DNA from: Tillus elongatus | Taxonomy: Eukaryota; Arthropoda; Insecta; Coleoptera; Cleridae | DNA: 64,000 nt | Direction of reading: 5' to 3' | NCBI GenBank assembly: GCA_964006375.1 | Contig: OZ023269.1 | Location: 6,890,426-6,954,425, forward strand | Part shown: in pieces, positions 13,588 through 56,800 of the stretch | Layout of the letters: every line of letters starts with the position of its first letter | Numbering within the stretch: position 1 is the first letter of the stretch | The notes under the pieces: generated by a model | Databases searched by the model: none | What the model was told of the DNA's origin: nothing | Seen by the model: only the letters and a program-made list of their open reading frames with translations | Position numbers and translations under genes: made by a program

Positions 13588-22320
<8,733 letters not shown>

Positions 22321-30060: not shown

Positions 30061-30603
30061 AGTTCGGTTGGAAAAAAACAAGGGCTCTCACACTTAAAAA
30101 AAAACACATTTATATGCTTTTAGTTTTATTGCCCCTCACTTGCGTGTATATATACCTGTTTCGACAATAAATATTATTATTATTATCAAATGGTAAAAAG
30201 AAAACTGCAAATAAAAATAATATGGGTATATATTATCACATTAAATTTGTATATAATTGTCATGAAATGAACATTTTGTGAACACAGCCTCAAAGCAAAC
30301 AGGCACTCTTTAAAAACTAAATTTTAGAGAAATTACAATAATAAATAAAATAAACATCAATAAATAATACTACAGCAACAAGCTTAAATACAAATGACAA
30401 AAAACTATATATATTTATTGGGAACATGAAAATATATATTTTTTGTTTAACTTAATCAACGATTAACATATAATATATAGTATGGTCAGATCGTAACACT
30501 TAAAAAATACTTGTTTTACAAGATTCATTATGACATTATATAAAGTAAACTAAACTACTAAAACAATAAAGGAAATATCTTTGAGCATGCAAGTCTAATA
30601 AGA
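30061..30603. other. Downstream of NT5DC; retroelement tail
   Basis: A 3' tail of a non-LTR element may end at about 30150-30190 (CCTGTTTCGACAATAAATATTATT). TTTATT at 30414-30419 is AATAAA on the - strand and could serve as the NT5DC poly(A) signal. Confidence 0.4.
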
Positions 30604-30808
30604 TTATACGAAATATGATATATATTCATGGGGCATTACACCTCTTCTTGGATAAAAAGTATGATTCACTGAATATTTCAGCAAGTTACTTATATTGGAA
30701 GTGTAGATATCCGCAAATCTGAAGAGTCTTCTAGAAAAATATGTCGGATTGTGGTATGTACGGAAGACACTGCCAAATTGTTTGTTGAAGACACATTTTA
30801 TGTCATTT
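30604..30808 (-). CDS. NT5DC2/3: NT5DC exon i (last, with stop)
   Basis: Acceptor TTTATTTCAG; (R)[67 protein letters not shown], stop TAA. A GTATAA sits just before the stop, so a further exon carrying the missing tail is possible though not seen. Confidence 0.9.
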
Positions 30809-33800
30809 CTGAAATAAAAGAAAGAAAAATCACATATTAATAAATATACAAACACCTTAAAACATCTCTAATTATGTAAGGCTAGATGCATTCTCACCAC
30901 AATTAGAACCGTATACCGGTTTCGCTCTAATTAGAGCTCTTCAGTACGGCATACTAATTGCAGCGAAAATACACCTATAAAGTAATACGGCTATGGTAGC
31001 CAGCCTTCCAACACTAAGTGAGATGTAAGACACGAAGCATGTGCCGCCACCTCGTTGCAGAACCAAGTAGTATGTTGTTACGGCAGCTTCAAATAACACG
31101 GAATGTTAAAAAATAGAGATTGTATACAACCAACTAACAATTTAGTAAATTGTCAGCCCTGGCCCATTTCTACCCTAATATAGGGACAAATGCACAATAA
31201 GCCAAAGGTTGCAGTGCTATCAGGGCTGCAAAGCCGCGGACGAGCCCTGAAGAAGGAAAAAAAAACAGGGACAAAGTATGTAACACTCTTGTGTTATTTG
31301 TAATACTACTTGGTTTCGCAACGAGGGTGCGGCACGTGCTTCGTGTCTTACATGTCACTTAGTGTTGGAAGGCTGGCTACCAGAGCCGTATTACTTTATA
31401 GATGTATTTTCGCTGCAATTAGTATGCCGTACTGACGAGCTCTAATTAGAACGAAACTGGTCTACGGTTCTAATTGTGATGAGAATGCATCTAGCCTTAC
31501 ATACTTTGTCCCTATATTAGAGTAGAAATTATCCAGGGCTGACAATTTACTAAATTGTTAGTTGGTTGTATACAGTCTCTATTTTTTAACACTCTTGTGT
31601 TATTTGAAGCTGTCGTAACAACATACTACTTGGTTCCGCAACGAGGTGGCGGCACATGCTTCGTGTCTTACATCTCACTTAGTGTCTCTAATTATGTTGG
31701 ATTGAATCAGTATACCTTTCCACCATTGCTTGAATCCCACACGGTTTCGCTGTGGGTCCTTCACTGTTTTGTAAACCGCCTTTACAAAAGTCACATCTAG
31801 AAACATTTAACAACTCATAAAAAAATACCCCCATATAGCAAGACGTACCAAAAAGACTACTAACAAATTGGAAAATATACAAAAACAAAAGTATTATTGA
31901 AAAATTAGTTTTGTTGGACTGTATCAGGACACTTTTCTGCCAATTCTAAGATCTCTTAAGGTTTCATTGTAAGTTTTTCACTCTTTAACATCTAAACTGC
32001 CCTCACCGATTTTACAAAACATTTTATAACTCGCTGGGGAGCGCTCGAAGCCGTTCTCTCTTTTTAGTGAATTTTCTTGAAAATTTTTTAAAAAAATCAC
32101 TCTTGAGGAGATCCCGACTTTTGAATTTTGAAAAAAATTCTTGAAATGAGCGCAAACTAGGCCCCCTAGAACCCATATTCAGGGTCAGTTTTGATTTTTA
32201 TGTGTATCGCACCGATAAATCAAAAAGTAATAGGCCGCTTTGATCAAATTTGCTACAAACCTTCCTTTTGCAAGTGGCTTGGATAAGTTCGTTAGCCAGG
32301 AAAATCGGATGAGTTTATCCAGGAAAATTTTGGGTTTTTTTGCAGAAAATTTTAGAATCTCCGAAAATAGTAAAGCTATAACAACAAAATTTGGTGCGCT
32401 GGTTTCAGGCATTAAGGTAAAAGACATAAAAGTTAAAACGTCAAAATTGATAATCATGGTAGTGGTACTAATGTGAGTGGAAATACGACACGAAATAACT
32501 AATAAGCTCCTAGATCTGTGTCTAAGTCATTATTTTCCTTCATTTCGTTGAAATATGAGCAAAAAATCCATTGTAAATAAAAATTGTTTGGTATAAATAA
32601 TAAAGACGTTAGAAAATTAACATACTAGCGTATATACCTGCTAGTACATACATCTGTCATCTCGATGGTGGTCGAGTGGTCTCAGCGGTGTGCATCAGAT
32701 AATCGAGTCCTATAATAAGACTAGTTCTAATCCTACTTAGTGACTTCACTTTTTATTAATTTTTTTTTAGTCTTTCATTTCATTTTACCGTTACCTGATC
32801 AGATTGTTGTTTTTCCGATGAATTTTTTAGCGAGTTTTTGTATAAAAAATAATGTAATAAAGAGATGAAAATTTTCAAGACTTAGTTCAATTTGAATAGC
32901 ATATCTGGTTGTTTTTTCTTGCCCTAACTTAGTGAAACCGTTCCATATTTAATACAGTCGTAGACTTTTCTAGTGGCTTCACAAGTGCTTGTTTTTTTCT
33001 GCGACCGATTTCAATTTTTAGTGAATTTTGCGTCATAACAAAAAATTACGTACCAAAATTTATATCTGTAGGTTTAAAGACAAAAAAGTTATAGGCATTT
33101 AAAGAAAAAGATTTAGAATTCAATATAAGGAAAACTCTATTGTCGTATTTGTGACACTGTTCCACGCCTACCTGTTGGGCTTCTGTAACTCACTTGTTAC
33201 AAGGAATAAATAAAGGTTTATCTATCTATCTTTAAGCGATTCAAGACCCAAGAATTCGATTCTCAAAAGGATTCGATCTTTCCCATGACTACTCCTGAGG
33301 TGGTCCCATTTTCACCAAGTCAGTATCTGATGGTAGGATCTCAGGATAATCAAGCAAAATCCTCTTATAATCTATGCAACTTAAAGTTCTACTATAATAT
33401 GGCACTTTGATTACATTATAGCTGTTTTCTAATACCGTACTCACTACGAGAATATGTTCCTGTGATTAATTGCAAAACTTGCACTGGCACAAGGAAGGGT
33501 GCAGACCTCTCACTGCCAGCGGCATCTTATGTCGTTAGCGCAAACTATGTGCATTTTGTGACATAATAACTCCAAGTGTGAAATTCGAATTTAGACTCGC
33601 TTATTGCAATCTTTGATATTTTTTCTGGTATATTAGACAACTTTATAGAAAAATAACTGGTATGTCAGACTCATATTCATGCCAACTTTCAAAATACGGA
33701 ATAAAAAAATTTTTGTTACAACCCCATTGTGAATCAATTTTTAAAAATATTTTTTTGTTTGGAAGGATATACTCCTCAGATGATCCTATTTTCGCCAAGT

Positions 33801-38148: not shown

Positions 38149-41100
38149 AGCTCCAAACTAAATGAAAACATCATTGGAACAAATAAACACAAAATAAACG
38201 CAGAGGATTATAAAAATATATATCTTATTTACCGTCAATTCTGTAATAATAGCACCAGTTCTCCAACCATGTTCTAGAGTGACATCAGCCAAATCACTGT
38301 ATGGATGGTCACCAAAGTAAAGAACCTGATGACCTCTCCAACCAGTCAGATCTTGAAGCTGCTTAACAGTACCCTAAACAGAAAAAGCTCATAAATATTA
38401 AAGTGAAACATACAATTTTTTGCTAGTTATTAAAGTCAACGAATAAGATGTGACAAATTTAAAATATTTTATCTATTGTAGAGTTCAGTCGATGCACAGC
38501 ATGAGAAATTTTTCTGTTACAAATGAAAAATAATATATTGTACTAGAACTAGAAAGGAATAAGTACACTTGAAGAACCCAAATCACCACAACACATTTTT
38601 TAAAGACCTGACGATCGTTTCACTAACAAAATTAGCATCATCAGGGGATGAAAAATTCTAACAACTTACTACTAAACATCACCTTTTATACTGAATCTTA
38701 GGTAAAGAACGATACCGAGAGGGAGACTAAATCACAGGCAAATTGTCTGTGTATTGTATTTTAATTGCCGGATGAGGTTTTTTAACTTCCTTTATAACTT
38801 TACCTGACAAGTTTCGGAATATTAATCTATCAAAGACAGAGTGCAAACAGGACTACAAACCACTGCAGGAGCTCTGTTTAAGGAAGTTTTGTTTTTTATT
38901 GCCTTAGAAATATAAATACTTTCGTACACATCTAGCTTCACTGGCTGTCTAACATTTTTGATAAGTTTAAGATTTTCTTTATCTATGTGGTGGTTATTAT
39001 TATGTTGTGCCATGCATGACTTGTCTACACTACTGTATCTTAGCTGTGGCAGATGTTCAGTGAATCTAGCCTCTAGTTACTTACTGTATATCAGCCTTCA
39101 TTGACAATTATTTCTTCTGTTGTCTTATGTTATTCGCATGTGACAGTATTTGAAATACAGCTGTGTTATTATTATTATTATTATTATTATTAAGAGTAAT
39201 TGAAAGCGTTATAATCTGTATGTGTAATTTCTAGCCAATTGATGACAAAATTGACTGTATATTTAGTCAATAGAATGTGATAACCACCCTGAAAAATAAA
39301 AACTAACTTACTTCATAATAGATGGTTCCCTTTTCTAGTTTGGTAACTCTATCCCAGATATGTGTACCACTCCTTTCGTCATATACTCGAATAGGTCTGG
39401 AAATATCAGTAAAAAATCTTGGTTTTCTGGCTTGTACTATCAAAACATCAAAATAGTCTTTCCAGTCAGGTCCCAGTAACATTTCCATTCCCTTATTTCT
39501 AAAAACAAATAAAAAATTGTATACAGTAAACTTAGGATGTCTAGTATAAATTCAATATAATACTAAGTAACAGAAATTTAAAACAGATCAATCTTATTTT
39601 TAAAAATGCGGTACTTTGATGCAAAAAATCTTCCCTTATTAAAGGTGGCTAACCCGTTGAAATTTTTAAATTGTAAGGGGGTCATTTCAAAGGTAATTTA
39701 AGAAGCGCTTTGGATCCTTTCTTGGGACAGGTTGTACTCTAGCAGTTTTCCAGTTACTAGGGAATATGCCTATATTGTAAGATGTGTGAAACAGACGAGT
39801 CAGGACAGGAGCAAGTTCTGGTGCGTATTTTTTGAGAACAATTTATGGGATCTCCTCAAGGCCAGAGGCTTTTCTGGTATTAAGAGAAGAGAGCATCTTT
39901 TGTACCTTTTTAGTTTTGAAAATGATATCAGTCATTTTATGTGTGGCATTGGGGACTGTTGGTGGTTGAACATTTGGAGGTGGGTTGAGAGTAGAATTGC
40001 CGGCGAACAACGAGGTAAATAGTTCAGCCTTGCCCAGGGCGGTAGAAACAATTTCATCCCCTGAGACAAGAGGTGGGAATGTGCTCTTGCAAAAATTATT
40101 CCCAATAGATTTAGCAAGAGTCTAGAAGGGTTTGCTGCCGTTGGAACTCGAGATGACTTTGTTTTTGATGTGGTTATTAAACGAGTTTTTTGCCTCAGAA
40201 AGAATGCGGACATAGCGGTTTCTTGCATAGTTAAACGCTTGACAGTTTTCTTGACTGGGATTGTGTAGAAGCGTTTTGTGAGCTCTGACCTTTTCAAGTC
40301 TGGCCTTGTCACAGGATTTAGAGAACCAGGGCTTTTGAGTGGCTGAAGAGGTTTTCTGTGTATGTGGAAGAAAGAATTCCATGCCAGCTTAGATGATTTC
40401 GGTGACGTTTTGTGAGATATCAGAGGGGTCAGGATGAGAGAACCAGACAGACGCCCATGGAAATGACGAAAAGTAATCCCGCAATTCGTCTCAGTTCGCG
40501 GAGTTGTATTGCCAAACGATATGTGGGTGTGATGACTGTGTGACCTCGGGTTCCATTGCACAGGAAGCAGTGACCATGCCGTGGTCTGAGCGACCAAGGG
40601 GGTGGTGACTGATGTCTTATAGCATTCAGGTTTTGTAGTAAGAAGGAGATCCAAGGGATTTGAGCTGTGTGTTGGGATGCGAGGAAAGTAAGTAGGTTGC
40701 TGAACCATATTGGCTAAATAATTGCTGACTGCAAAGGCCCCCGCTGCTCTCCCTTGTGGATCGGTTTTTGAAGATCCTAGCCATTTCTTATTATGGACAA
40801 TTGAGGTCACCAAGAATAGTGACCTCGGAGGAAGGATATTCAGAAATCAGATGGTCGGTTTTTTCAGAAAGGTAGTCGAAGAGCTGGACAAAGTTGTTGT
40901 CAGAAGGTGACCGGTAAATGCAACAGATGAATTTAGTTTCAGCCCTGAGAGAGAGTTTCATCCAAAGTATGTCTTGTCTGCCAGCTTCCAAATTGGGGAG
41001 TCTGGTGCAGGGTAGATTGCTACAGACGTATGCGCACACACCTCCATGCAATCTAAAGGAAGTAAGGAGCTCATACCCCGGGAAATTAAGGTGATTAGTG

Positions 41101-47873: not shown

Positions 47874-50800
47874 GCTCTGGACATGAGTTCTAGGAGTCCA
47901 ACCAAGTTCGCACTCATTTAAGGATATGTTTTCAAAATTCAAAAGTCGCGATCTAATAAGCGAATTTTTTCTACAAAAATTCGCTAATAAATTAGATTTT
48001 TTTGGAACAAAGAAAAATAGTAACATCTATTCTGAAATTAAAATAGGATATAATATTACAATCAAGTGTATTTTAAAAGGGTACACTCAAACATACAAGT
48101 TGAGCTGAAATTTGAATCATAAATTATTAACATTTTAATTGCTGATTCATAGGTTTAAAATTAAACTTCCTCAGACATGAAACACAGATACCTGTTGATA
48201 AAAGTATGATAAACATAAATGTTATCAGTTGATAAATAAAAAGTAACTGCAGATAAGCAGTTCTGTTTATCTCCTGGTTATTAAATAAAAATAAGCTGAT
48301 TCAATTTCCTTAAATTTATATCCACTCTATGAATAATTACATTTGAATGAATGTTATTTCCAGAAACCCTAAATGACAAATTAAACTTGTTGAAATTAAT
48401 TACTGAAGCAAATCACAGCAAAAAATACTCATGCAAATATTTTCCCTGGCATTTATTCTAGGAGGAAATGCTGAAAATAATTGCAATTTCATGGAATAGA
48501 ATCCTTACATTTTAGGCTTGACCTTGCACATTTTTATATTCAGAAAAAACATCCTGAATCCCACATGAACTGCATTTGTGTCACTGCTCACCCACCCCCT
48601 TCCTGTGCTACTGCACTTGAAATGAATCAAGTTTAATTATCCAGTTATACAAAGTAATTTCCTTTTATACTGTCTCTTTTCTTTCCTTACACAAATTAGC
48701 AAATCTTTCTGGAAACATTCATGCAATTTACATACAAAACACCCAAATAATGAAACATAACACAATAAAATTAATTAAAACTATAAATGGCTACTTGTTT
48801 AATTAATTTTACACATCAGCCAGTGGCAGCTCTTTGAAGTGGGCAAGGTAAGCAATGCCCATTCAATTAAATTAAACAACAAATTGTTATGAGACTAGTG
48901 AGTCTGTTTTTACAAGCTTTTATTTAACTTCACCTGTTACCTGGTATGTTTTTTTTTTATTTTATATTTCAACAACACACCACGAAGGCTTACAGCCTAA
49001 ATACTATTGTACCGTGGGTGTCGACAATGAGGAAAGAGGCAACTTGTTAATTCTGGACTTGAAGGTTTGGAGGTTCAGAGGAGAAGGAAAAACATGTGCC
49101 GGCAAGGAATTCCACAACTTGGAAGTCCTCGGGACAAAAGAGAGGGCATAACAAGATGTTCTGTGTCTGGTGACCTGGACAGTATAAGGGTGCATTCCCT
49201 GTTCCCCTGGGAGATCTGTTGGAGGCAGCAGGTGGAAGAACTATGGAAGAAAGCTCCTCTGAGCAGTGCCCGTGCAGATATCTAAAAAAGAGAGATGTCA
49301 CCAACGGCACGTCGGTGGGCAAGGGATGACAGCCTTCGGGTGAGGGTAGGGTCGCCGATGAGACGTATAGTTCTCTTCTGGATGGAGTCCAGGATAGCGA
49401 GTGTAGAAGCGGCAGTGGCACCCCAGATGTGGGAGCAGTATTCGAGGTTTGGCCTTATTTGTGAAGTATATAAGGTATAGAGATTAGCTGGTGAAAAGAA
49501 TTTGCGAGCCCGGAAGAGGAAACCTAATTTCTTAGCAGCCGCTTCTGCAATTGATGTGACATGTTGGTGCCAACTGAGATGTCGATCCACAGAAATGCCA
49601 ACAAGTGAAACGGATGCATTACTTTGAATAACTTGGTTGTTCATTGTGATGTGTCTAGGGTTCGTGTATCTCTTATGAGAAAGAAAGCAAGACTGAGATT
49701 TTGTGGGGTTGAATTGATTTCTACTTCCCCAGTCTGATATTTTTTGGAGATTCACGGAGACAGAACCCTCCATGAGTCTGCGATCCTCATCTAATTGGGC
49801 TAAAGAGACAGGCTTAGAATATTGTATATTTAAGTGGAGGGTGCTGTCGTCCGCGTAACTGTGAACTGGGTTGGATGTGCTAGAGAGGAGGTCATTGATG
49901 TGGAGAAGAAACAAAGTAGGGGCTAAAGCTGAACCTTGAGGAACTCCTGCATTAATTGGATACAGTTTAGAGGAATGGCCATCCACAACAACAGAAATGC
50001 TCCGGTTGGAGAGGAAATTTGTTGTCCATGTACAGAGTTTTGGTGGTAGCCCATAGGCCGGAAGTTTATTAAGCAGCGCTGCGTGCCAGACCTGGCCGAA
50101 TGCTTTGGATATGTCTAAAGCGCAATCTGGGATTTACCGTGTAGTTCCATAGACTTGTTCCAAGAGTGGGTGACAAAGGAAAGGAGGTCGGCAGTTGATC
50201 TGCGCTGACGGAATCCATACTGCCCGTCGTGGATTAGACTGTGTTTTTCAAGAAATTTTAATAATTCGGTGTTTATAGAGAATAGAGCATCTTTCGTACC
50301 CTTTTAGTTTTGAAAATGATATCCGTCATTTTATGCCTGACATTGGGGACTGTTGGTGGTTGAACATTTGGAGGTGGGTTGAGAGTAGAATTGCCGGCGA
50401 ACAACGAGGTAAATAGTTCAGCCTTGCCCAGGGCGGTAGAAACAATTTCATCCCCTGAGACAAGAGGTGGGAATGTGCTCTTGCAAAAATTATTCCCAAT
50501 AGATTTAGCAAGAGTCTAGAAGGGTTTGCTGCCGTTGGAGCTTAAGAGGACTTTGTTTTTGATGTGGTTATTAAACGAGTTTTTTGCCTCAGAAAGAATG
50601 CGGACTTAGCGGTTTCTCGCGTCGTTCATGACAAGTCAATGTTGAACCAGTTCCGCTTATCGGATTGGGCTGAAATTTGGACAGGTGTATAAGTCAGGTG
50701 ACAATGCAACATAGGCTATCTGTCATTATCATAAATTCAATATGGCGGACGCGCCAAGGGGGGAGATTTTTTTCTTTTTTCACAAACCCCTGACGTGGGC

Positions 50801-53800: not shown

Positions 53801-56800
53801 AAAAGACTGAGGGACGCCAAGAAAGAGTCGTGGAGGAGGCACTGCGAAGAAGTGGAAAACACGTCTGAGAGTGCTCGACTACACAAGATCCTGTCTAAGG
53901 GCCCTCAGACTAACATAGGCTCCCTTAGAACACCCACGGGAGGCTTTACAAGCTCAGGAGAGGAAACTATGGAAGTTTTACTCCAGACACACTTCCCCGG
54001 CTGTAACATAATAAACCAATCACCTCCGGACTGGGAACACTCAGAAATAGAGGCGCCTTATAGGCGGGCATCTAGAGTAAACTGGACAGTCGCTAAAGAG
54101 GTGGTTACTTGGAGCAAAATCAGATGGGCGAGTAACAGCTTTAAGCCAAACAAATCCCCGGGATTTGATGGAATAATGCCCATCATGCTCCAACAGGGTA
54201 TAGATATACTGGCGCCGGCGCTTACCCTAATTATGAGGGCCAGCCTGGCTCTGGGGTACATTCCGAGGGCATGGAGACCGGCCAGGGTTGTATTCAATCC
54301 TAAACCTGGGCGTCCAACAGACCAGGCAAAGTCCCTGAGACCAATAAGTCTCATGTTAAAAAGAATGGAAAAACTGCTCGACCGGCACATTAGGGGCGGT
54401 GTACTGGAAGCATATCGCCTACACTGCAGACAATATATATACAGAGCAAGAGTCTCAACAGAAACAGCACTGCACCAACTGGTGCTGAAACTGGAGAATA
54501 CGCTGGAGGTGGCGCTGGGGCCCTTCCTAGACATAGAGGGGGGCCTTCAGCAACACCTCATTCGGATTGGTTCTGGCAGCTGTCAGGGAGTGTGGAATAG
54601 AGGAGACCTGCTGCAGGTGGATCGGTTCCATGCTAATGGACACAGTGGTGTTCACCTCACTTGCGGGAGTGACTCTGCTGGCGGGGTGTTGGCAGGGGAG
54701 CGTTATGTCTCCCTTGCTCTGGTGCCTAGTCGTGGACGGCCTGCTAGGGAGGCTCTCAAGAGGGGGGTATGAGGTACAGGGCTATGCGGATGACATTTTC
54801 ATCATAGTCCGAGGAAAGGTTACACAGTCAGTGTGGGAGCGCATGCAGACAGCACTGAAAGTGGTGGAAAGGTGGACGGTTGGCCAAGGGCTCGGGGTGA
54901 GCCCCGAAAAAGCAACCGTCATACCGTTTACGAGGAGGAACTGGGAGAGCCACAGAACTCTCACTCTATATGGTAGAAACATCCCAATGGCCAGGGAGGT
55001 AAAATATCTTGGGGTTGTATTGGACTCTAAGCTAACCGGGAATGGTCACGTTGAAAAAATACTGCGTAAGGCAGTTACGACCCTAGCCGTCACTAGGCGG
55101 CTATATGGAAAACCGTGGGGACTAAGACCTACTATGGCTCACTGGCTGTACACAAGGGTGGTCAGGCCATCGTTAACATACGCGGCACTTGTCTGGTGCC
55201 CTAAGGTGACACAATTCAGTGCCAAACAAAAACTAGGCAAGGTCCAAAGGCTGGCTTGCCCTGGACATCACAGGGGCCATGTCTTCAACCCCAACAGCCG
55301 CCATGGAGGTGTTGCTGGATTTTATAGTTTGTATGACATTTATAGTTTGTATATTTATGATATCCTGCTTAATGCAAAAGAAAAGGCAGGGGAAATACCT
55401 CATAATAGTAAAACCATATACAAACATAGTATATGTTACAAAGCTGAATATTTACAATAAACCCCCTGGGAGTGTGAGAAATCTGGATCCTAGAGCATTT
55501 AAAAGGAAAACATGTGAAATCTTGACAATAAAAGCTCACTATTCCCTTGAATATATGGTTGACTATTTAGTCTGTTATCTCTATCCTGAGTTTAATAAAA
55601 AAGAATCATTATTTACGAAATTTGTTGTAAAAATGTATTGTTGTTTATTTATATTGATGACTGCCATCCTTACTTGCAATGTATGTTGGCAATGATAAAT
55701 AAATGAAACGAAATGGAACAAGACTTTGCGATCTACGTAAGCAGGAATTGATTTAAATTGCATGATAAGAGTTGTTGTGAGAGTTTTCAGAAGTATATTG
55801 AAATCTTAAGACAATATTGAATATTGTTCTCATGACTGGAGTACTGCCCAAAGACAACCTTGACCCTCCTAGATTCTATTCAAAAACGAACTGTTCGCCT
55901 TATAGGAGATTCATCTATCAGTTAATCTCACTTCTCTCAACCACAGGAGAAAGGTTGGAGATCTCTGCCTCTCCTATTGATATTACTATCGGCATTGCTC
56001 CTTAGAAACTGCTTTGTTCGTACCTCCACTTTAATCGGCCAACCTGATTTAGTCGAAAAGCACACGCTTTTAGTGTTAAATTACCACTTGTCTAACGGTT
56101 CCTTACGAACCTTCGTTATTTGCCAGAGCAAATAAGCTTTGGAATGCCCTCCCGGCAGACATAAATCTCTAACTAATGAATAAGGGCACAACAAACAAGT
56201 TCATGACGTCTTAGAAACACAGGCTTTGATTTTCATGAACTATATCATAAAAAAAAACAGAAAATAATTCCTAAGAATTTGGAAGAGCACTCCTGTTGAA
56301 ATTGTTATTTTAGTTATAATTTGATTGTGTAAAATAAAACCTGTGCACCAAAACATGTGTCTAAGAATTGTAAAAAACTCTGGACGCAGCAAGTGCGTTA
56401 TGATAGTGAATTTTCATAAAAATGTTTTTAATAGCAAATATGTTTTTTTCAAGGAAAGCAGGCATTAAACTTGGTTACCAGTATAACCTATATAGTAAAA
56501 ACAATGTGCCATCTTTCATGAAAATAACTTTACTGTTTGAAAATGTACAAAAAGAAACAACAAAACTAGTTTACTGTCCAACGAACCTTAGAGGTTAATA
56601 GCAAATTGAGCTATTCAAATTTGGGGCATCCAATAAAAATTCGCTACCATAACGCACTTGCTGAGTCCCGAATTTATTTTCTTACAAACATGCATTATAA
56701 TTTCGTTGTCGAAATTCCATACATTTAAGGTCAACTCAGAACAGTTACTGACCGGGGGAATCCGCCTGTCAAATTAAGACAAATCATTGTTTAAGAAAGG

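Follow-up and report, generated by a model that had tools for sequence, protein, structure and literature searches.

The element described here, a composite insertion of non-coding, hammerhead-bearing units in the genome of the beetle Tillus elongatus, probably represents an animal (non-LTR) retrozyme whose circular or multimeric RNA is copied onto both nicked strands of its target from two internal start sites, A and B, most likely by the enzyme of a Penelope-like element (PLE). As to the enzyme that moves animal retrozymes, PLEs are called a strong candidate in the sections of PMC7229834 cited here, and LINEs or PLEs are still named as the movers in the cited part of a 2024 review (PMC11722881). 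Insertion ends record this reaction. Those of the beetle family lie at two fixed internal sites that are used as a pair, an anatomy that synthesis on both strands would explain and that ties retrozymes to PLEs through anatomy instead of through co-occurrence.

Composite insertion in an NT5DC intron

In the window, i.e., the whole stretch of 64,000 nucleotides that was analysed, positions 30878-31685 are occupied by a single insertion of non-coding units of about 320 bp, which from left to right comprises one unit on the minus strand, a filler of 76 bp, a scrap of 17 nt and about 1.2 units on the plus strand ending at 31685 (Table 1). The unit is 319-320 nt long, the G + C content of the element is 41.8%, and the minus unit (reverse complement of 30870-31190) matches the plus array (31303-31685) at 93-94%. 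The first-pass annotation had counted one minus and about 1.3 plus units; the former count holds, whereas the plus part amounts to about 1.2 units together with a short rearranged piece. Since the 12-bp direct repeat CTCTAATTATGT encloses the whole composite, it most likely entered as one insertion, and the filler is possibly captured RNA. As no coding frame combining RT and GIY-YIG is present within 30866-31697, the retrozyme itself does not qualify as a PLE, although it may use one. The retrozyme-like identity proposed earlier is supported by the size of the unit, its type I hammerhead and its tandem arrangement, together with low G + C content, target duplication and multicopy dispersal, all of which match the description in the cited sections of PMC7229834.

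Table 1. Features of the composite insertion and of the host gene (positions in the window)
Feature	Position	Strand	Basis or remark
Last coding exon of the host NT5DC gene	30607..30808	-	PF05761; lower limit taken from the open frame; AG of the 3′ splice site ends at 30809
Target-site duplication, left copy	30866..30877	.	CTCTAATTATGT; last 5 bases TATGT also match the element end at site A
Inverted arm of one retrozyme unit; site A (~u40) at its outer 3′ end	30870..31190	-	sequence comparison
Type I hammerhead, complete core CUGAAGA / GAA / GUA, predicted cut after 30914	30900..30960	-	core motif
Filler separating the arms, 76 bp, with a run of 9 A	31191..31266	.	source not found
17-nt unit fragment	31267..31283	-	reverse complement of 31497-31513
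Direct arm of ~1.2 retrozyme units; site B (~u222) at its outer 3′ end	31281..31685	+	31303-31685 continuous, 31281-31300 rearranged
Type I hammerhead, complete core CUGACGA / GAA / GUC, predicted cut after 31462, C.A mismatch in stem II	31416..31476	+	core motif
Target-site duplication, right copy	31686..31697	.	CTCTAATTATGT, direct repeat, 12 bp
Open frame with upstream NT5DC exon	38161..38373	-	PF05761
Relic of a Penelope-type endonuclease C-terminus in another NT5DC intron	38828..39076	-	63% identity with the L080 protein (82 positions)
Open frame with further upstream NT5DC exon	39306..39551	-	PF05761

Exons with PF05761 lie on the minus strand on both sides of the element, which confirms its previously noted placement in an NT5DC intron; the intron is the last one of the gene, and the left repeat lies about 57 bp upstream of the 3′ splice site. 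In the predicted fold of the element's sense transcript, 58 of the sense hammerhead's 61 bases are paired to the other arm, which may explain why a self-cutting unit is tolerated in an intron. The relic in another intron of the same gene, on which a Pfam search by itself returned no match, shows by its similarity to a Penelope-type protein of the same genome that such elements were once active nearby; it is separate from the retrozyme. Four further frames of the window (17177-17938 and 49282-50130 on the minus strand, 19645-20946 and 54537-55457 on the plus strand), three for reverse transcriptase and one for RNase H, belong to other retroelements. In addition, the WW-MyTH4 and RhoGAP frames at 13702-14961 and 21592-22317 on the plus strand look like one ARHGAP39/Vilse-like gene; the first of these frames, which is 87% identical to its counterpart in Zophobas morio and 84% identical to that in Dendroctonus ponderosae, places the host among the beetles.

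Insertion ends across the family

A genome search, by which the first-pass annotation had expected the family to be defined, revealed a multicopy family with copies on contigs C1 to C9, of which 77 high-scoring loci were examined. Sample 1 (search with 320 bases of the locus) comprises 40 scored loci including the window, the best of 5476 first-look candidates, and sample 2 (search with the minus unit) consists of 40 scored places out of 3813 candidates, which yielded 37 new loci; both are top-scoring parts and not random samples, and 5476 and 3813 denote mostly unscored candidates and not copy numbers. The copies of sample 1 differ from the majority sequence by a median of 5%. Units were numbered from the predicted ribozyme cut (u1), with site A taken as u36-48 and site B as u213-229.

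Both orientations are present in 27 of the 40 loci of sample 1 and in 24 of the 37 loci of sample 2, i.e., in 51 loci (50 of 77 by a second count), and the inverted and tandem layout, regarded as unusual on first inspection, is thus anything but unusual within the family. In all two-orientation loci the minus part precedes the plus part (head-to-head), the reverse order being found in none. The outer 3′ ends (n = 128) fall at A in 52 cases, at B in 46 and elsewhere in 30, so that sites covering 30 of the 319 unit positions take 98 of the 128 ends; in these counts the right flank of L014, which reads N, was classed as 'other', and the left end of L027, which resembles A, was left out. Where both outer ends of a composite are fixed, one lies at A and the other at B in 15 of 15 composites of sample 1 and in 13 of 15 of sample 2, the exceptions being one A+A (L060) and one B+B (L077), which gives 28 of 30 in total (one-sided binomial, 4e-7), with the proviso that both search queries end near site A and that B+B composites may therefore be under-sampled.

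With respect to target duplications, a score of at least 9 was reached by 6 of the 15 two-ended composites of sample 1 as compared with 0.19% of 1560 cross-pairs, the other 25 loci scoring at most 6. In sample 2, a score of at least 8 was reached by 11 of the 15 two-ended composites, all of them A+B, as compared with 0.23% of 1332 cross-pairs and 1 of the 22 other loci. Taken over both samples, 18 of the 30 two-ended composites score at least 8 and 12 score below 8. The duplications of the 21 composites with a score of at least 7 have a modal length of 12 bp (range 7-14) and a G + C content of 30%, and no clear motif was found in them.

In contrast to the outer ends, the inner 5′ ends are spread evenly over the unit (n = 100, KS p 0.24), with three at the ribozyme cut where 1.9 are expected. 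Aligned segments of at least 60 nt run through the ribozyme cut in 51 of 51 A-ended and in 36 of 45 B-ended cases, and 84 of 126 such segments are longer than one unit. At the inner junctions of sample 1 (n = 27) there is a gap of 0-2 in 10 loci, an overlap in 9, a gap of 3-30 in 5 and a gap of more than 30 in 3, the window's own junction being among the last.

Raw divergence, with medians of 7.5% between arms, 8.1% between same-strand units and 9.5% between loci, does not settle the number of templates, and the sharing of common variants was used instead. Over 14 variable columns of sample 1, the arms of one locus agree at 0.743 (42 pairs) and same-strand units at 0.759 (55 pairs), as compared with 0.598 for different loci, and none of 1000 permutations reached the arm or the same-strand value. 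Minus-strand copies of L005, which belong to a related satellite, were dropped before this count. This tandem satellite (L005:1-1420, with a period of about 160 bp by eye) lies beside the retrozyme insertion and shares part of u107-u210; no hammerhead was found in it by a regex scan. The minus arm at L019:1232-2501 contains two units, seemingly alternate ones, with no difference in 312 columns, as against 5-9% between other pairs, a pattern that a recent duplication of two units would leave.

Proposed mode of insertion and candidate enzyme

Fixed outer ends together with scattered inner ends indicate that synthesis began on the outside and stopped anywhere. That the two arms end at different fixed sites suggests copying onto both target strands, from a separate start site for each, and the variants common to both arms suggest a single template. 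As the arms pass the cut and exceed the unit, the insertion ends point to a template longer than the ribozyme-cut linear monomer, i.e., to a circular or multimeric one, and multimeric linear transcripts would also account for arms longer than one unit.

According to the mechanism proposed here, family RNA would be cut by its own hammerhead and closed into a circle, as in the published pathway, or left multimeric. An RT-endonuclease would nick both target strands about 12 bp apart, and each target 3′ end would prime reverse transcription inside the RNA, one at A (about u40) and the other at B (about u221). Each synthesis would then proceed round the template to a varying extent, in many cases beyond one unit length, before the two cDNAs are joined at their ends in the centre of the composite and the staggered nicks give rise to the duplication of about 12 bp; the resulting composite would be head-to-head, with A at one end and B at the other. 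Ends, order, duplications, arm lengths and the alleles shared from the template are read from the sequences themselves, whereas ribozyme activity, the RNA circle, priming on both strands and the enzyme are deduced from them. Against this mechanism stand the 30 of 128 outer ends that lie at neither site and the 12 of 30 two-ended composites without a clear duplication.

In L1 twin priming there is one fixed 3′ end, which is often A-rich, and the second site or other outer end is variable. Ordinary LINE mobilisation of this type, where the fixed 3′ end is primed once and a second, internal priming inverts the 5′ part, would accommodate duplications of about 12 bp, which are within the LINE range, as well as the TATGT microhomology at the left junction of the window, and RVT_1 frames, of unassigned type, are present in the window. 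Also, Nematostella retrozyme-like repeats with 15-bp duplications were compared to LINEs in the cited part of PMC4918200. However, an anatomy with one fixed and one variable end was not met in the 30 composites, in which both outer ends are fixed and nearly always represent A and B, and the duplication, where present, mostly adjoins site A or B directly, a poly(A) or simple-repeat tail being absent. LINE mobilisation is therefore an unlikely explanation.

Foldback or self-priming of a single cDNA would likewise generate an inverted repeat, and head-to-head PLE inserts have been read as the result of self-priming on an antisense template (PMC3846280, in the part cited). In line with such an origin, palindromic overlaps are found at 9 of the 27 inner junctions of sample 1 and common variants are shared between the arms of a locus. 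A self-copied arm should, however, bear the outer end of its partner, whereas the ends differ in 28 of 30 composites, and the arms are unequal in length and inner start, which renders foldback quite improbable. A tandem satellite or decayed repeat that was inverted by later recombination, with the hammerhead as a passenger, would fit the neutral-looking decay of the copies and the related satellite adjoining the L005 insertion; already disfavoured by the fact that 18 of 30 two-ended composites lie as a whole within one duplication (score of at least 8), by the invariable order of minus before plus and by the clustering of ends at two sites, it is very improbable indeed.

As to the enzyme that would copy retrozyme RNA from A and B onto both strands, GIY-YIG domains exceed the cut-off at 150 of 150 scored places of the beetle genome (the best of 14221 candidates), and a 637-aa frame with RT and GIY-YIG is present at L080, with homologues in Tribolium, Aromia and Molorchus; judging by this pair of domains, the RT and GIY-YIG proteins of the genome would be those of PLEs. 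No PLE with ends matching A or B was found, the comparison covering one PLE copy, L080, which is 5′-truncated and shows no detectable similarity to the retrozyme unit. The 5′ flank of L080 (its first 510 bases or so), considered as a PLE end, turned out to be another repeat and is uninformative on PLE ends.

According to the cited part of PMC3846280, a PLE insert has the structure pLTR-ORF-pLTR next to a further, inverted pLTR, most commonly head-to-head, the duplications measure 8-10 bp, and one of the inverted ends may bear a 'tail' of 31 bp; trans-mobilisation of a gene with pLTRs on its flanks is also described, and no evidence for cross-mobilisation between PLE families is reported there. 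The PLE protein of an anole, a predicted dimer, cuts and extends both strands and starts at two internal sites, which the genomic ends match (PMC11167929). The beetle retrozyme thus resembles PLEs, as far as described in these sources, in the head-to-head insert within one short duplication, the unequal outer ends (cf. the 'tail'), two internal start sites of reverse transcription, the hammerhead within the element and AT-rich targets (PMC3846280, PMC11167929). It differs from PLEs in that it codes for no protein, that its start sites are about 140/180 nt apart as compared with about 30-40 in PLEs, those of the published assay lying close together (PMC11167929), and that one of each site is used in nearly every two-ended composite, whereas the PLE start sites are alike on both strands (PMC11167929). 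Synthesis on both strands would also offer a simple reading of head-to-head PLE inserts.

That A and B pair with each other was guessed before any circular fold was computed. The circular fold of the window's minus unit reaches -102 as compared with -76.6 ± 4.7 for shuffles, 0 of 100 being as low. In the circular consensus fold of 41 copies of sample 1, A faces B with a probability of 0.75; the value is 0.77 when each locus of either sample is represented by a single copy (34 and 23 loci) and ranges from 0.68 to 0.78 over ten random subsets, as against 1.1% for random pairs of sites. In folds of single copies the pairing exceeds 0.5 in 12 of 41 (9 of 41 by a narrower measure), and it is absent from the best circular fold of the window's minus unit. 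These predicted folds are consistent with the notion that A and B may be the two strands of one helix that is presented to a two-headed enzyme. By extension, and with rather less than even confidence, we put forward that a dimeric PLE-type RT might grip a rod-like circular RNA at a single helix and start DNA from both strands of this helix, with one site per nicked target strand; A and B would then constitute an integration signal, and the head-to-head composite would be the normal product of animal retrozymes. With the insertion ends as a record of the reaction, the question of the enzyme becomes testable with existing genomes and the published in vitro assay.

Predicted hammerhead ribozymes and relation to other retrozymes

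As stated on first inspection, the hammerhead core is complete on each strand (CUGANGA, GAA and GUH at 30900-30960 and 31416-31476), and the outer stem I CAATTAG/CTAATTG and a tiny palindromic stem III are present in both orientations. The inner stem I of the window hammerheads is CCGUA/UACGG, stem II is GCUCU..AGAGC, and stem III has shrunk to the palindrome ACCGGU. The minus hammerhead has the better fold (z -3.2, 3 of 200 shuffles as good) but GUA as its cut site, whereas the plus hammerhead has the usual GUC and does not stand out from shuffles (z -1.4, 13 of 200 as good), probably because of the C.A mismatch in stem II. At the gathering score, Rfam matches no family in the whole window; with relaxed filters on 30600-32000, Hammerhead_HH9 (RF02275, gathering score 52) is the best family at both sites, with 27.6 bits (E 2.3e-4) on the minus and 20.9 bits (E 0.032) on the plus hammerhead. 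The covariance-model match anticipated in the first-pass annotation is accordingly obtained weakly and without threshold, and not at the gathering score, likely because stem III is almost absent. RF02275 was also matched below the cut-off in all eight further family loci tested, an arbitrary 8 of 76 others.

The core is intact in 109 of 154 hammerhead-spanning copies and in 66 of 76 loci, the cut-site C is found in 141 of the 154 copies and the window's A in 7, and pairing is seen in 93-98% of cells for the four stem parts and in 87% for a possible third pair of stem III. The first reading had it that differences between copies mostly keep the fold; in the 154 spanning copies, however, double changes in the stems number 4 as compared with 5.3 expected by chance, which is consistent with neutral decay from one or a few similar masters, shows no selection for the fold, and neither proves nor disproves it. 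From these sequences we infer ribozyme activity of the family hammerheads; that they are merely hammerhead-like and inactive, for which the missing Rfam match at the gathering score, the plus copy folding no better than many shuffles and the absence of covariation within the family could be adduced, is scarcely credible in view of the mostly intact core, the prevailing cut-site C and the eight of eight HH9 matches below threshold.

A different hammerhead is located at L001:1501-1546, the sole RF00163 match (33.7 bits, cut-off 34) among the best 74 of 207343 candidates in the 1.72-Gb genome, with no tandem repeat within its 3-kb stretch. A hammerhead-like string at L080:4141 was rejected, as it has one extra base after the core and is without Rfam support at E 1.

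On sequence grounds, the beetle element is a further animal retrozyme, the apparently new feature being its paired-site, head-to-head signature. With the animal non-LTR retrozymes in the cited sections of PMC7229834 it shares a non-coding unit of about 300 bp (there about 170-400 nt), the type I hammerhead, tandem arrangement, low G + C content, a highly self-paired predicted circle, duplications of more than 4 bp and PLEs in the same genome. It differs from them by its very short palindromic stem III, its beetle host and its head-to-head composites with two fixed start sites, which those sections do not mention. Nor was a report of head-to-head animal retrozymes or of a paired-site signature met in the open-licence literature surveyed, as far as the cited portions extend. 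Stem III, ACCGGU, recalls amphibian and PLE-type hammerheads in which stem III is minimal or missing, forms reported in the cited parts of PMC7229834 and PMC7761336 to cut better as dimers; in contrast to these, stem I of the retrozyme keeps an internal loop and the outer helix CAATTAG/CTAATTG. Plant LTR retrozymes, as described in the cited part of PMC4918200, are likewise hammerhead-bearing and non-autonomous with a circular RNA life cycle, the circle being putative in the beetle, but have a type III hammerhead, LTRs and 4-bp duplications, as opposed to a type I hammerhead, no LTRs and duplications of about 12 bp here.
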